Of a stretch of 64,000 nt of DNA, positions 56,556-64,000 are shown in pieces (within the stretch, counting starts at the first letter, position 1; each line of letters begins with the position of its first letter). A program made the translations under genes and the position numbers. The stretch comes from Calothrix sp. MO_192.B10 (GTDB lineage: Bacteria; Cyanobacteriota; Cyanobacteriia; Cyanobacteriales; Nostocaceae). The stretch lies in contig JASJDS010000074.1 of NCBI GenBank assembly GCA_030065055.1, positions 1 through 64,000 of the forward strand. Reading direction: 5' to 3'. The notes under the pieces are model-generated. The model worked only from the letters and a program-made list of their open reading frames with translations. It was not told the origin of the DNA and ran no database searches.

Positions 56556-57116
56556 ATTTATGCTGAATTTTTAGTTGCAATCTTTTTTCTTGGAGATATA
56601 TCATCTCATTAGAGATGCTTTATAAGGCAAAGCTGAGATGATCTCGATATTGTAATTTTATCCTCAGTAATTTATTAGTGTCATCCATAACATGTATAAA
56701 TGTAAATACAGTAAAAATACTGTCGATATTCAATGAAGCGTCGCTCGTCAATCCAAAATCCAAAATTGGATGACAACCGAATGGTGAAGATGTTTAACCA
56801 GGGTAAATGCCAATACCACCACAAAATGATTGAGAAAATTCAATTTCGTCCATTTACTAATTGGACAACATCAGAGTGAGAGAGAAGAAAATGAATGGCT
56901 CATAGTTGAGCAAAACTGAGTATTAACCTGCCGATGATATTGTTTAAGTATTGATACTTGCATACTATGTATATATTCAAGCTGGAAAAGTTGAGAAAGT
57001 TTAACATTAACCCAACAAAACAGTTTTAAAAGACTAGAATTTGGGTAGTAGCTTCCACAATTGAGATTTAAGCAGTTTGGATGCTACCCCAAAAAATTGT
57101 TACGGGAGGTCAGATA
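56556..57116. other. Gap upstream of the dehydrogenase gene
   Basis: It holds AAAATCC repeats (about 56752-56767), the right copy of the 40-bp direct repeat (56771-56810) and AT-rich leader. No gene or riboswitch is recognised. The dehydrogenase ribosome site GGGAGG is at about 57104-57109. Confidence 0.45.
56771..56810. repeat. ~40-bp direct repeat flanking the DUF2059 gene, right
   Basis: Counterpart of 55897-55935 (TGACAACCGAATGGTGAAGA, then TTAACCAGGGTAAATGC). Confidence 0.75.
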
Positions 57117-58484
57117 ATGACTATCTCCACTATTAACCCTGCCACTGGGGAATTATTGAAAACCTTTGAGCCACTCAAAGATACAGAAATTGCCGCCAAA
57201 CTAGATTTGGCACAGCAGGCTTTTGAGAAATATCGTCATACTAGTTTTCAGCAGCGATCGCAATTTTTACAATCCTGTGCTGATATTTTAGAACAGAATC
57301 ACGAAGAATTTGCCAAGTTGATGACCCTGGAAATGGGCAAAACTTACAAAAGTGCGATCGCAGAGGCAAAAAAATGTGCTTTAGTATGTCGTTACTATGC
57401 CGAACATGGTGCTGAATTTCTGGCAGATTTGCCTGCAAAAACTGATGCTAGCGAAAGTTTTATCCGCTATCAACCATTAGGGGTAATTTTGGCGGTAATG
57501 CCTTGGAATTTCCCTTTCTGGCAAGTGTTCCGCTTTGCCGCACCCGCACTCATGGCAGGGAATGTGGCTGTACTCAAACACGCCTCCAATGTACCCCAAT
57601 GCGCTTTGGCCATTGAAGGTATTTTCCATCAAGCAGGTTTTCCTCAGGGGGTATTTCAAACCCTATTAATTGGTGCGAGTCAGGTAGCAGACTTAATGGC
57701 AGATGACCGAGTAAAAGCCGCTACACTGACGGGTAGTGAACCTGCTGGTGCATCTTTAGCCGCAGCCTCAGGAACACAAATTAAGAAAACCGTTTTGGAA
57801 TTGGGTGGTAGCGATCCGTTCATTGTGTTAGAAACTGCTGACTTAGAAGCAGCAGCTGTGACTGGAACTACAGCACGGATGTTGAATAACGGGCAATCTT
57901 GTATTGCAGCAAAACGTTTTATAGTGGTAGATGCGATCGCAGATAAATTTGAAAAACTACTATTAGAAAAATTTCAGGCATTAAAAGTGGGCGATCCCAT
58001 GGTTCCAGACACTGATATTGGTCCTTTGGCAACTGCGAAAATTCTCCAGGATTTAGACCAACAGGTGCAAAAAACCGTGCATGTCGGGGCAAAAGTTATT
58101 TTAGGTGGAAATCCTGTGGCAGATAGTTCTGGTAACTACTATCCACCAACCATAATTACCGATATTCCTCCAGAACATCCCATTGCCAAAGAGGAATTTT
58201 TCGGTCCCGTGGCAATGTTATTCCGGGTTCCAGATATTGATGCGGCAATTAAGCTAGCTAATGATACTCCCTTTGGTTTAGGTGCTAGTGCTTGGACAAC
58301 CGAACCCCAAGAGCAGCAGCGTTTGATTAATGAAATCGAAGCCGGAGGTGTATTTATCAATGGCATGGTGAAGTCCGATCCCCGTATACCTTTCGGTGGT
58401 ATTAAACGTTCTGGATATGGTCGAGAATTAAGTATTCAAGGCATACATGAATTTGTCAATCTTAAAACTGTGTGGGTGAAATAA
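57117..58484 (+). CDS. NAD(P)-dependent succinate-semialdehyde dehydrogenase
   Basis: A 455-residue aldehyde dehydrogenase. The ATG at 57117 follows GGGAGGT by seven bases; an ATG at 57081 lies before that site. The catalytic Cys262 is in NNGQSCIAAKRF, the general base Glu228 in VLELGGSD, and the nucleotide-binding stretch VMPWNFPFWQ is near 122-131. It oxidises succinate semialdehyde to succinate. Paired with the ThDP decarboxylase downstream, it completes the 2-oxoglutarate-to-succinate bypass of cyanobacteria (established in Synechococcus PCC 7002). The gene order is the same as reported for such pairs: dehydrogenase next to an 'acetolactate synthase-like' gene. Confidence 0.9.
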   Translation: MTISTINPATGELLKTFEPLKDTEIAAKLDLAQQAFEKYRHTSFQQRSQFLQSCADILEQNHEEFAKLMTLEMGKTYKSAIAEAKKCALVCRYYAEHGAEFLADLPAKTDASESFIRYQPLGVILAVMPWNFPFWQVFRFAAPALMAGNVAVLKHASNVPQCALAIEGIFHQAGFPQGVFQTLLIGASQVADLMADDRVKAATLTGSEPAGASLAAASGTQIKKTVLELGGSDPFIVLETADLEAAAVTGTTARMLNNGQSCIAAKRFIVVDAIADKFEKLLLEKFQALKVGDPMVPDTDIGPLATAKILQDLDQQVQKTVHVGAKVILGGNPVADSSGNYYPPTIITDIPPEHPIAKEEFFGPVAMLFRVPDIDAAIKLANDTPFGLGASAWTTEPQEQQRLINEIEAGGVFINGMVKSDPRIPFGGIKRSGYGRELSIQGIHEFVNLKTVWVK

Positions 58485-58862: not shown

Positions 58863-60506
58863 ATGAACACAGCAGAACTATTAGTAAAATGTTTGGAAAA
58901 TGAAGGGGTGGAATACGTCTTCGGACTTCCTGGGGAAGAAAATTTGCACGTTCTAGAAGCCTTGAAAAATTCTTCTATCCAGTTTATAACTACCCGCCAT
59001 GAACAAGGTGCAGCTTTTATGGCAGATGTTTACGGACGGCTGACAGGAAAAGCTGGAGTGTGTCTTTCTACACTGGGACCGGGAGCTACTAACTTAATGA
59101 CTGGGGTAGCCGATGCCAATCTAGATGGTGCTCCCCTAGTGGCAATTACCGGACAGGTGGGTACAGATAGAATGCATATTGAATCCCACCAATACTTAGA
59201 TCTAGTAGCAATGTTTGCTCCTGTTACTAAGTGGAATAAACAAATTGTCCGACCAAGCATTACCCCAGAACTTGTCCGTAAGGCATTTAAGCGGGCACAA
59301 ACGGAAAAACCGGGAGCAGTTCACATTGATTTGCCGGAAAATATTGCCGCTATGCCCGTGGAAGGAAAACCTTTACATAGGGACAACATTGAAAAAACCT
59401 ATGCTTCTTTTGCCAGTATTAGGGCTGCTGCCGCCGCCATTTCCCAAGCTGTTAATCCCATCATTTTAGTCGGGAATGGAGCTATTCGCGCCCAAGCCAG
59501 CGATGCTGTAACCCAATTTGCCACCCAGATGAATATTCCTGCCGCAAATACCTTTATGGGTAAGGGGGTAATTCCTTATACTCATCCCTTAGCTTTATGG
59601 TCAGTAGGATTACAATTACGGGATTTTATCACCTGTGGTTTTGATAACACAGATTTAGTAATTGCCATCGGTTACGATTTAATTGAGTTTTCTCCTAAAA
59701 AATGGAATCCTCAAGGTAATATTCCCATTATTCATATTGGGGCAAATCCAGCAGAAATTGATAGCAGCTATATTCCCACTGTGGAAGTTGTAGGAGATAT
59801 TTCGGATTCCCTCACGGAAATATTGAAACTAGCAGACAGAGAAATTAGAGCTAATCCCTACGCCATTAGTCTAAAACCAAATATTCGCTCCGATTACGAG
59901 CAATATGCTAATGATGATGGGTTTCCCATTAAGCCACAAAAGTTAATTTATGACTTGCGTCAGGTAATGGGGCCAGATGATATTGTTATTTCTGATGTGG
60001 GCGCTCATAAAATGTGGATTGCCCGCCATTATCATTGTCATAGTCCCAATACTTGCTTGATTTCTAATGGCTTTGCAGCCATGGGAATTGCCATTCCCGG
60101 TGCTTTAGCGGCGAAACTGGTTTATCCCAATCGCAAAATTGTGGCAGCAACTGGAGATGGTGGATTTATGATGAATAGTCAAGAATTAGAAACTGCTTTA
60201 CGGGTGGGTACTGCCTTTGTCACCCTAATTTTTAATGATGGTGGCTATGGCTTAATTGAATGGAAACAAGAAAATCAATTTGGTAAAGGTAATTCATCCT
60301 TTGTTCATTTTGGCAACCCTGATTTTGTCAAATTAGCGTCAAGTATGGGTTTAAAAGGCTACCGCGTAGAAGCTGCGACTGATTTAGTCCCCATCTTAAA
60401 AGAGGCTTTGGCGCAGGATGTACCGGCGGTAATTGATTGTCCAGTGGATTATCGGGAGAATATTCGCTTTACTCAAAAATCTGGTGAGTTGAGTTGTGAA
60501 ATTTAG
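58863..60506 (+). CDS. ThDP-dependent 2-oxoglutarate decarboxylase (acetolactate-synthase-like)
   Basis: A 547-residue ThDP enzyme. The cofactor-activating Glu47 lies in RHEQGAAFMA, and the ThDP/Mg motif starts at about Gly431-Asp432-Gly433 (GDGGFMMNSQELE) and ends at Asn459 in FNDGGYG. The fold is that of acetolactate synthase, and such genes are usually labelled ilvB. Next to succinate-semialdehyde dehydrogenase the better call is 2-oxoglutarate decarboxylase, the enzyme established in Synechococcus PCC 7002 that makes succinate semialdehyde and CO2. No small regulatory subunit gene is adjacent, which agrees. An acetolactate synthase role cannot be excluded without alignment of substrate residues. 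Confidence 0.85.
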   Translation: MNTAELLVKCLENEGVEYVFGLPGEENLHVLEALKNSSIQFITTRHEQGAAFMADVYGRLTGKAGVCLSTLGPGATNLMTGVADANLDGAPLVAITGQVGTDRMHIESHQYLDLVAMFAPVTKWNKQIVRPSITPELVRKAFKRAQTEKPGAVHIDLPENIAAMPVEGKPLHRDNIEKTYASFASIRAAAAAISQAVNPIILVGNGAIRAQASDAVTQFATQMNIPAANTFMGKGVIPYTHPLALWSVGLQLRDFITCGFDNTDLVIAIGYDLIEFSPKKWNPQGNIPIIHIGANPAEIDSSYIPTVEVVGDISDSLTEILKLADREIRANPYAISLKPNIRSDYEQYANDDGFPIKPQKLIYDLRQVMGPDDIVISDVGAHKMWIARHYHCHSPNTCLISNGFAAMGIAIPGALAAKLVYPNRKIVAATGDGGFMMNSQELETALRVGTAFVTLIFNDGGYGLIEWKQENQFGKGNSSFVHFGNPDFVKLASSMGLKGYRVEAATDLVPILKEALAQDVPAVIDCPVDYRENIRFTQKSGELSCEI

Positions 60507-61227: not shown

Positions 61228-64000
61228 TTAGACGACATATTCTAAATTGATGGTAATAGAAGGGCTATTATCGAATACTTTGATAAAGCTAATGTTGATA
61301 TTTGGGTTGTAATACCAAGCATTAGTATTAGCTGAATTGAGGGCATCAGAATCACTGTTTAAAGCAATTGCTTGACCTGCTATAGTTACCTTCATCAAAG
61401 GTCCCGAACTTCCTTTAGGCTCTTGGGGATCGTGTAAGATGGCAACGAAGAAATAGGTTTCTAGGGGCGTATAATGATCGTGACCCCGTTCGATTTTAAT
61501 TTCCCTGGTGTTTGCATCACTCGGCTTTTTATGGGAGATTTTGACTTCCCGATATTCTTCTTTAGCCTCTGGATCGTTATTGTATTGTAGGGGATCGATC
61601 TTGGCAGAGTCTCGACTTTCACCATCATCGAGGTACATGGTGTATTGTCCTTGACTGCCAGGATAAATATTTAGGGTAATAGGGTTGGGTTCTCCTCTAT
61701 TATTCTTTTCCTTGACATATTGTTCTAGTTCAATGGTGGGAATAATTGCCCCTTCACGGACGTAAATCGGTACAACGAAACCAATTTTACCGTAACTAGC
61801 ATCGAGAATTGCTTCAAAATTGATAGTCGATCCTCCCTCAATTTTATAGGTCAGGGGGAATTTATTATCCATGAAACTATACCAGTTGCTACCTGCGGGT
61901 AAATAAACATCGCGTTTAGACTGAATTTCTGAGTCTGGGTCTAAAATTGGGGCAACGAGAAGATCGTCTCGCACAAAAAATTGATCGTTGAGAAACTTAA
62001 TTTTATCGTTATAGATTGCCTTATCTTGAGGATCGTTGAGAAACATGGGTCGGCAAATGGGAACCCCTGTAATTACGCTCTCGAACATGGCATCATAAAA
62101 CAGTTGCATGAGACGATAGCGCAATTCGATGTAGTGCTTGCAAATGGGAAGAACCTTACTGTATAATTCGGGGTCTGGGACAGCAACACCGTTTTCAAAG
62201 AACCAATCTTGATACATAAAAGGTTCTTGGAATTGTTTCTGTCCTTTGCGGATGTAGTGGTTGCGGAACCAAGGAAGAAATGCCCCTGCTGCTGTCCAAC
62301 GCATTAGTAGTTCTGGACTTGCCCATTGTTCCCAATCATATTCTCGTTCAAAACCGCCAATATCCTGACCGCAAATAGATAAGCCACACATTCCTACCGA
62401 AAGAACTTGAGCGACATTCATCTTGAGAAAGTCCCAAGAGGAAGAGTTATCTCCCGTCCATAAACCTGCCCAACGGTGCATTCCTGCGAAACTACCTCGG
62501 CCAATAATAAAGTTACGTTTCTTTTTCCCTTGTCCGTTTTCCCGACCTGTAAGATTGTTTAATCCTTTATAAGTCGCTTTGTGGAGATTATAAGAATACA
62601 AGTTCCAAATTTTGAGGGCTGCTAGTTGTTCTTCGGGGGTTCCTTCTTCTCCTGTGGTTACATTTTCTTGGGAAAATTGGTTACTGTTCAAAAGTAAATT
62701 AAAGGGAAATCCTTTCATATCCCCTCGGGTATCGCGGATGGCTGGGGTAGTCATATCCTGCCATACCATTTCTAAACCCATGTCGAACAGAAATTGATAT
62801 TGTCGCCCCCACCATTCTCTTACTTCTGGTCGCGCAAAGTCAGCATAATGGCCAGTGGTTCCCCGATTGCCCCCATAATAAACTTCGCCAATATAAGGGT
62901 TGCCACTGTTAAAGTTGCCTTCAGCGTCGTTATATTGCCCTAACTGTTCGTAACCCACATTATAATTCTGGTTGGTTCTGTTATCGCTGGAACGTCGATC
63001 GATGACAAAATAATTATTGTCTCGTCCTTCTGCGTAGGTAGTATAGTTGGGGTCTTTGTTGCTAATAATTGGAGTAATATTGGTACTGCATTTTACCCCT
63101 TGAGCTTTTAAGTTCCCAAACATTTCTTGCGGGTTGGGAAACTTATTTTCATCAATGGTAAAAGTCTGGTAATTGTTCTGTATATCTACATCTACGTGAA
63201 GACCGTCTAGAGGAATTTGATGGTATCGATATTTACCTACGACCCATTCTAATGCGCCCCGACTTTCATAGCCATAACACCCTTGATGATATCCCAAGGC
63301 ATAACGAGGTTTTAATCTTTCTTTGCCCACAATGGAGGTAAAACACTCTAGAATGTCTTTTGCCTCCTTTCCTAACATAAAGTAATAGTCTAGTTCGCCA
63401 AAGCGGATGCCGAACATATAACGACTGGAATTGTCATGAGCAATATCCATCAACACTTGAGAGGTGTTATCGATAAAAATCCCATAAATAACACTATCTC
63501 CGTCACCAACATCACAAGCCCCATTAAATTCCATAAAGAAGGGATCGGTATGATAAAGGGGTTCTCTGTTGTCTAGAGGTCCTTCATTATATATTTGTCG
63601 GTAACGCATATTGTCGTAGTTGAAATAATTTAATCGATCGGTATTTTTGTAGAGTTGCTTACCTCCTTGTTCGCCAAAACCAATATATCTAGCACTTCCT
63701 GGTTTTTTAACTGCTTGAATAATGGAATATTCGTCTCCATTTTCTGTGAAATAAATGCCAGGTTCTGCTGTTTTCCAAACCCTCAATTCTGTACCGTCAT
63801 TGAAACGATGAAAAACTTCTAGGGTAAAGGGATTATAGTTGACAACCAGTTTAAGGGAAGGTTTAGTTGTAGCAATGGGACTGTTTGTGGCAGGCTTGGT
63901 AATGAATTCAAACTTACCGTCAGAAATTTTGTTCTCCTGGATACTAAAAGAACCTCTCTTATCTTCCAAAAACTTTCTTAATTCTTTGAAGGTATTAGTA
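61228..64000 (-). CDS. GH31 enzyme, probable alpha-1,4-glucan lyase (5' end outside window)
   Basis: At least 923 residues; the frame stays open to the window edge at 64000, so the N-terminus is missing. The (beta/alpha)8 domain is GH31. The nucleophile region reads MVWQDMTTPAI (Asp codon 62755-62757) instead of the WxDMNE of alpha-glucosidases, and the acid/base Asp is in LWTGDNSSSW (codon 62449-62451), 102 residues later; ICGQDIGGFE follows. WQDMTTPA and the surrounding RGDMKGFPF and SYNLHKATY are as I recall them from red-algal alpha-1,4-glucan lyases. Those enzymes eliminate 1,5-anhydro-D-fructose from glycogen or starch and are about 1040-1090 residues long, matching the missing 120-150 residues. 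Alpha-glucosidase is the alternative. Confidence 0.78.
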   Translation of the reverse strand, partial: TNTFKELRKFLEDKRGSFSIQENKISDGKFEFITKPATNSPIATTKPSLKLVVNYNPFTLEVFHRFNDGTELRVWKTAEPGIYFTENGDEYSIIQAVKKPGSARYIGFGEQGGKQLYKNTDRLNYFNYDNMRYRQIYNEGPLDNREPLYHTDPFFMEFNGACDVGDGDSVIYGIFIDNTSQVLMDIAHDNSSRYMFGIRFGELDYYFMLGKEAKDILECFTSIVGKERLKPRYALGYHQGCYGYESRGALEWVVGKYRYHQIPLDGLHVDVDIQNNYQTFTIDENKFPNPQEMFGNLKAQGVKCSTNITPIISNKDPNYTTYAEGRDNNYFVIDRRSSDNRTNQNYNVGYEQLGQYNDAEGNFNSGNPYIGEVYYGGNRGTTGHYADFARPEVREWWGRQYQFLFDMGLEMVWQDMTTPAIRDTRGDMKGFPFNLLLNSNQFSQENVTTGEEGTPEEQLAALKIWNLYSYNLHKATYKGLNNLTGRENGQGKKKRNFIIGRGSFAGMHRWAGLWTGDNSSSWDFLKMNVAQVLSVGMCGLSICGQDIGGFEREYDWEQWASPELLMRWTAAGAFLPWFRNHYIRKGQKQFQEPFMYQDWFFENGVAVPDPELYSKVLPICKHYIELRYRLMQLFYDAMFESVITGVPICRPMFLNDPQDKAIYNDKIKFLNDQFFVRDDLLVAPILDPDSEIQSKRDVYLPAGSNWYSFMDNKFPLTYKIEGGSTINFEAILDASYGKIGFVVPIYVREGAIIPTIELEQYVKEKNNRGEPNPITLNIYPGSQGQYTMYLDDGESRDSAKIDPLQYNNDPEAKEEYREVKISHKKPSDANTREIKIERGHDHYTPLETYFFVAILHDPQEPKGSSGPLMKVTIAGQAIALNSDSDALNSANTNAWYYNPNINISFIKVFDNSPSITINLEYVV

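Follow-up and report, generated by a model that had tools for sequence, protein, structure and literature searches.

We found that a long minus-strand open frame at the end of the analyzed stretch of cyanobacterial DNA very likely encodes (probability about 0.85) a cytosolic, exo-acting alpha-1,4-glucan lyase (EC 4.2.2.13) that is predicted to yield 1,5-anhydro-D-fructose; the activity, substrate, product and location are inferred. This stretch, hereafter the window, covers 64,000 nucleotides (C173:1-64000) of a genome of 7.76 Mb in 330 contigs that is 96% complete. We favor a lyase over a hydrolase because the protein keeps the catalytic pair and the Asn of the lyases, lacks the Glu of the hydrolases and is separated from the latter in the tree. 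Together with the genes around it and their relatives elsewhere, it likely represents a pathway for anhydrofructose in bacteria, with aldos-2-ulose dehydratase (AUDH) divided in two, that spans several phyla, is partly decayed in the window's genome and rests on reactions that are likewise inferred.

Extent and domains of the GH31 gene

61228-64290 of contig C173 (61228..64000 within the window), minus strand: GH31 alpha-1,4-glucan lyase-type gene, recognized from the open frame and Pfam domains

The frame runs from 61228 through to the window end, and the sequence past 64000 shows that the gene is complete and intact, with an ATG start at C173:64290, a product of 1020 aa and its 5′ 290 bases outside the window. 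The protein displays the full GH31 domain set by Pfam, namely the N-terminal mutarotase-like domain, the barrel (E 1e-81) and the C-terminal domain, and on inspection only, no signal peptide is evident at its N-terminus. Its best single-domain PDB match, across 675 residues, is the Gracilariopsis lyase, and the same enzyme (2x2h) is the top Foldseek match of its predicted structure (pLDDT 85). The structural alignment with the algal lyase has a low identity (21%), and the Foldseek E-value of the FjDex31A dextranase is nearly equal to that of 2x2h. A search of a plasmid collection returned hydrolase-level rows at best (≤31% identity). The neighbors on the other strand, an aldehyde dehydrogenase (57081-58484) and a TPP enzyme (58863-60506), were excluded from the cluster parts.

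Diagnostic residues of the lyases

62755..62757, minus strand: Asp512, nucleophile/base, equivalent to Asp553 of the Gracilariopsis lyase (alignment to 2x2h)
62746..62748, minus strand: Thr515, where the DMNE motif of hydrolases has Glu and the algal lyase has Val556 (alignment)
63079..63081, minus strand: Asn404, matching Asn459 in the algal lyase; GH31 hydrolases have Ile here (alignment; role from PMC12441222)
62449..62451, minus strand: Asp614, general acid, equivalent to Asp665 (alignment)

In the lyase, D553 serves as both nucleophile and base with N459 as its helper, and N459 gives way to isoleucine in hydrolases (PMC12441222). Our alignment of 115 GH31 proteins took in MGAM, the Ruminococcus glucosidase and the aligned portion of 2x2h, and the numbering check was exact: in 2x2h, the nucleophile falls at 553, the acid at 665, Asn at 459 and Val at 556. 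The 34 DMNE hydrolases in the alignment have Ile at position 459 in all but one (Ser) and Glu at 556 without exception. The lyase-like bacterial proteins have Asn at 459, barring two exceptions (Asp, Val) and one fragment, and Thr, Cys or Asp, never Glu, at 556. Altogether, 21 alignment columns split the two groups, and the window protein has the lyase residue in each of them, while the hydrolase-invariant Glu556, Asn555, Ile459, Asp461 and Met416 (2x2h numbering) are gone in all lyase-like members. The window protein thus fails the criteria for a GH31 alpha-glucosidase, as it has WQDMTT where a WxDMNE loop is required and Asn instead of Ile at 459. Replacing the Glu of the loop by Val is by itself reported to have pushed a Sulfolobus glucosidase towards lyase activity (Rozeboom et al. 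2013). No enzyme assay for any bacterial member was found in the literature searched.

The original prediction, made from sequence alone, was of a cyanobacterial alpha-1,4-glucan lyase with WQDMTTPAI instead of WxDMNE and with RGDMKGFPF, SYNLHKATY and LWTGDN as matching segments. All four are found in the protein, and the call itself held on the residues, the tree (100/100; see below) and an AUDH-fold neighbor, with the product remaining an inference. The claim on the loop also held, with Thr515 where hydrolases have Glu. RGDMKGFPF and SYNLHKATY failed as lyase marks, as 2x2h has AYTLCESTR in place of the latter and nothing like the former; LWTGDN aligns with MWVGDN of 2x2h. The genuine marks are WQDMT[x]P without Glu, plus the Asn of TNIT.

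Phylogeny and the origin of the algal enzyme

A genome scan recovered 78 loci. Among these we recognize a TTP clade, named for WQDMTTP, with 28 loci apart from the window's genome, and a C/D clade (L032-L064 and others) with WQDMT[CD]P. A careful tree of 40 sequences and 756 columns separated all hydrolases, with support of 100/100, from a group made up of the algal lyase and two further clades, the window's and the C/D clade, and a quick tree of 71 sequences agrees with this split (support 99). Placement among hydrolases would have refuted the lyase call, and this test did not do so.

The window gene had also been claimed to bear on the origin of the red-algal lyase. This part failed: the algal sequence is not a member of the window's clade, and its grouping with the C/D clade (82/62) is not firm. 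An AU test of a tree joining the algal lyase with the hydrolases gave p 0.58, which is silent on lyase monophyly because the split is also compatible with the algal sequence branching deepest among the lyases. As the algal lyase does not lie within the cyanobacterial group and its position is unresolved, there is no evidence for a cyanobacterial source of the algal gene.

AUDH-like partners encoded by two genes

AUDH is known from fungi, where it turns 1,5-anhydrofructose into microthecin. The gene directly upstream of the lyase is intact, and its stop lies 55 bases from the ATG of the lyase gene:

64346-65062 of C173, beyond the window, minus strand: AUDH-type bicupin gene, 238 aa, recognized from fold and context

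Its match to Pfam AUDH_Cupin (18.3 bits; 13.7-21.2 bits for its relatives) is under the cut-off of 25, and its sequence profile searched against PDB sequences retrieved no AUDH, only antibody chance matches, for which reason we turned to fold comparison. The top three matches of its model (pLDDT 86) among 350,542 PDB chains are the AUDH entries (4a7k, 4a7y, 4a7z), with TM scores of 0.59-0.60 versus ~0.3 for the next match. The protein has an AUDH-type bicupin fold, as predicted by the model, and its link to AUDH rests on this fold and on gene context, not on a sequence match. Relatives of the bicupin occur in 17 of the 28 TTP-clade genomes (the 11 without a cupin include some incomplete ones) and in none of 243 other cyanobacterial genomes; 16 TTP loci, but no C/D-clade locus, have one next to the lyase.

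A second partner, of 416-504 aa, is the AUDH beta-propeller (Pfam AUDH_beta_propeller, E 4e-60). The sole PDB match of its family profile is 4a7k (residues 19-432, E 2.9e-105), and the equivalent of His155, reportedly the proposed dehydration residue of AUDH (Claesson et al. 2012), is invariant in 8/8 propellers. It is a separate gene of the cluster in Pseudanabaena, Paenibacillus, Vibrio and others, and is present at full length in 9/28 TTP-clade genomes. The cyanobacterial gene order is propeller-bicupin-lyase, that of Paenibacillus, Marinilabiliaceae and Vibrio is lyase-propeller-bicupin and that of Gastranaerophilales is bicupin-propeller-lyase; such recurrent clustering in three orders across different phyla is good evidence for a shared pathway. 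The intact cluster of Pseudanabaena sp. SR411 has a fourth gene, which encodes a debranching-enzyme-like glycosidase.

Remnants and a second lyase locus in the window's genome

65085-65317 of C173, minus strand: AUDH propeller remnant (family profile)
65577-65759 of C173, minus strand: debranching-enzyme-like glycosidase remnant, C-terminal 65 residues (homology)

No complete copy of the seven-bladed propeller with His155 was found in the window's genome, the Pfam model giving no match and the family profile only the remnant. The latter is broken and covers approximately the first 56 residues in pieces that are 83-88% identical to the Pseudanabaena propeller; the glycosidase remnant lies beyond it, upstream of the bicupin. 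This locus has lost two neighbors, with the lyase and bicupin left intact. Most cyanobacterial carriers have the lyase and bicupin with no propeller found, and since the pair is kept without it, it probably has a function of its own. The loss of the propeller happened more than once.

The genome has two further GH31 genes. One, on contig C218, is a paralog of 984 aa with WQDMTTPA whose top PDB match is the Gracilariopsis lyase and which groups with weak support (88/71) as sister to the TTP clade. The other, on C315, is a YihQ-type enzyme and was thus excluded from the lyase set. An intact homologue of the glycosidase remnant (67% identity) adjoins the C218 lyase, from which we infer that both lyase loci derive from one kind of cluster.

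Some further features of such loci were observed. The C218 locus (L005:10178-16650) combines the second lyase-like gene and the debranching-enzyme-like glycosidase with a protein-arginine deiminase (PF03068, E 1e-159). These genes lie in a 14 kb stretch between nifK-like and short nifE-like frames, which contains recombinase-like genes and resembles an insertion in a nif region. In Oscillatoriales cyanobacterium USR001 a 27-aa propeller remnant lies upstream of the bicupin (L016:5070-5150).

Spread of the lyase clades

The TTP clade ranges across Cyanobacteriota, Bacillota, Chloroflexota, Actinomycetota, Spirochaetota, Bacteroidota, Pseudomonadota, Acidobacteriota and one Methanosarcina bin. 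Of 244 evenly sampled cyanobacterial genomes, only the window's yielded a full-strength TTP lyase, the remaining matches being ordinary hydrolases of ~800 aa. The TTP lyase is rare and patchy, a pattern typical of horizontally moved genes. In the Methanosarcina bin (fen_51; L025) the lyase is split into several frames, and contamination of the bin is possible. The lyases of L066, L067, L069 and L070 (Bacteroidota, Thiodiazotropha, Acidobacteriota and Vibrio) reach 1124-1159 aa and exceed the cyanobacterial lengths.

In the C/D clade, 32 loci have a conserved upstream partner of ~559 aa that matches nothing in Pfam, NCBIfam or PDB, and 13 loci have a DUF6209-like gene downstream. These partners differ from those of the TTP clade, and we infer from them that the C/D clade likely acts in a different pathway, such that the lyase lineage serves more than one.

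Proposed mechanism and comparison with known systems

We propose that the lyase would cut at the non-reducing ends of glycogen or maltodextrins to release 1,5-anhydro-D-fructose. Asp512, with Asp614 as the acid, would form a glucosyl-Asp512 ester by the double-displacement route; with the water-handling Glu gone and Asn404 holding the nucleophile, Asp512 would then abstract the C2 proton, and elimination would give the enol of 1,5-anhydrofructose. The lyase gene is the last in its cluster, in which the two AUDH halves, encoded separately, are also conserved: the propeller half would probably dehydrate anhydrofructose to ascopyrone M, which the bicupin half would probably isomerize to microthecin. 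As only a remnant of the propeller is left in the window's genome, the lyase and bicupin would there constitute either a shortened pathway or a decaying locus. The sequence, residues, tree, gene neighborhood, predicted folds and remnants were observed directly, whereas the activity of the enzyme, its substrate, product and location, and the sharing of work between the AUDH halves are inferred. A bolder reading, in which several phyla hold a complete mobile pathway of lyase and split AUDH and cyanobacteria a derived lyase-bicupin route with the bicupin alone acting on anhydrofructose, is one that we consider tentatively and would not quite back.

The window protein resembles the Gracilariopsis lemaneiformis lyase (2x2h, EC 4.2.2.13, GH31) in domain order, length (1020 aa, versus 1027 for the chain of the solved structure), both catalytic Asp residues, Asn459, the WQDMT loop, lack of the hydrolase Glu and side of the tree; it differs in being bacterial, at 21% identity, with Thr for Val at 556, an AUDH-type gene cluster and no evident signal peptide. 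With the GH31 alpha-glucosidases (MGAM, the Ruminococcus glucosidase 3nuk and MalA) it shares the fold family and catalytic Asp pair, but it lacks the Asn and Glu of DMNE as well as Ile459 and belongs to a separate clade. The bacterial partners match the Phanerochaete chrysosporium AUDH (4a7k, 4a7y, 4a7z) in the propeller, which aligns over residues 19-432 with His155, and in the bicupin fold; however, they are two genes as opposed to one 900-residue chain, and only a propeller remnant survives in the window's genome. The pairing of lyase and AUDH also recalls the fungal anhydrofructose pathway (lyase, anhydrofructose dehydratase, ascopyrone tautomerase and AUDH), though the bacterial genes lie side by side; fungal sequences were compared only via 4a7k.

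Alternative explanations

One could argue for a GH31 hydrolase or transglucosylase in which no more than the nucleophile loop has diverged. GH31 enzymes are mostly hydrolases, a dextranase and glucosidase II are near-equal structure matches by E-value and the best NCBIfam match is the MalA glucosidase, albeit far under its cut-off. Against this, hydrolase-invariant residues are lost and lyase residues gained in all members, which form a 100/100 clade and cluster with AUDH homologues, making this explanation very unlikely. We give equally little credence to a lyase of the same mechanism acting on another alpha-glucoside and supplying the cupin with another anhydroketose, or with anhydrofructose released differently. 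The differing partners of the C/D clade, by which the lineage serves more than one pathway, would allow this, but AUDH acts on 1,5-anhydrofructose, and the debranching-enzyme-like glycosidase, which occurs both within the Pseudanabaena cluster and next to the second lyase of the window's genome, points to a branched alpha-glucan.

A further possibility, which is compatible with our main reading of a glucan lyase, is that the locus is decaying, with the lyase intact but the pathway dead in this organism. The propeller and glycosidase remnants upstream speak for it. Nevertheless, we regard it as unlikely, given that the lyase and bicupin are intact with their invariant residues and that most cyanobacterial carriers keep the pair without the propeller, suggesting selection.

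Implications

The holders of glucan lyase are given as fungi and red algae in a 2025 review (PMC12441222), and the term is absent from the part examined of a 2024 review of prokaryotic alpha-glucan enzymes (PMC11046441). No description of a bacterial glucan lyase or AUDH was found in the literature searched, which did not cover a 2023 GH31 subfamily paper that may list bacterial sequences of the lyase subfamily. What is new here is hence likely to be the clustering of these genes in bacteria, with AUDH divided in two. The natural split of a two-site enzyme makes its halves separately testable, and the cluster offers testable genes for anhydrofructose metabolism along with an enzyme source for anhydrofructose and microthecin. 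If the bolder reading above is true, bacteria would have a further way to spend glycogen besides phosphorolysis, hydrolysis and transfer, with a possible antimicrobial pyrone as product.
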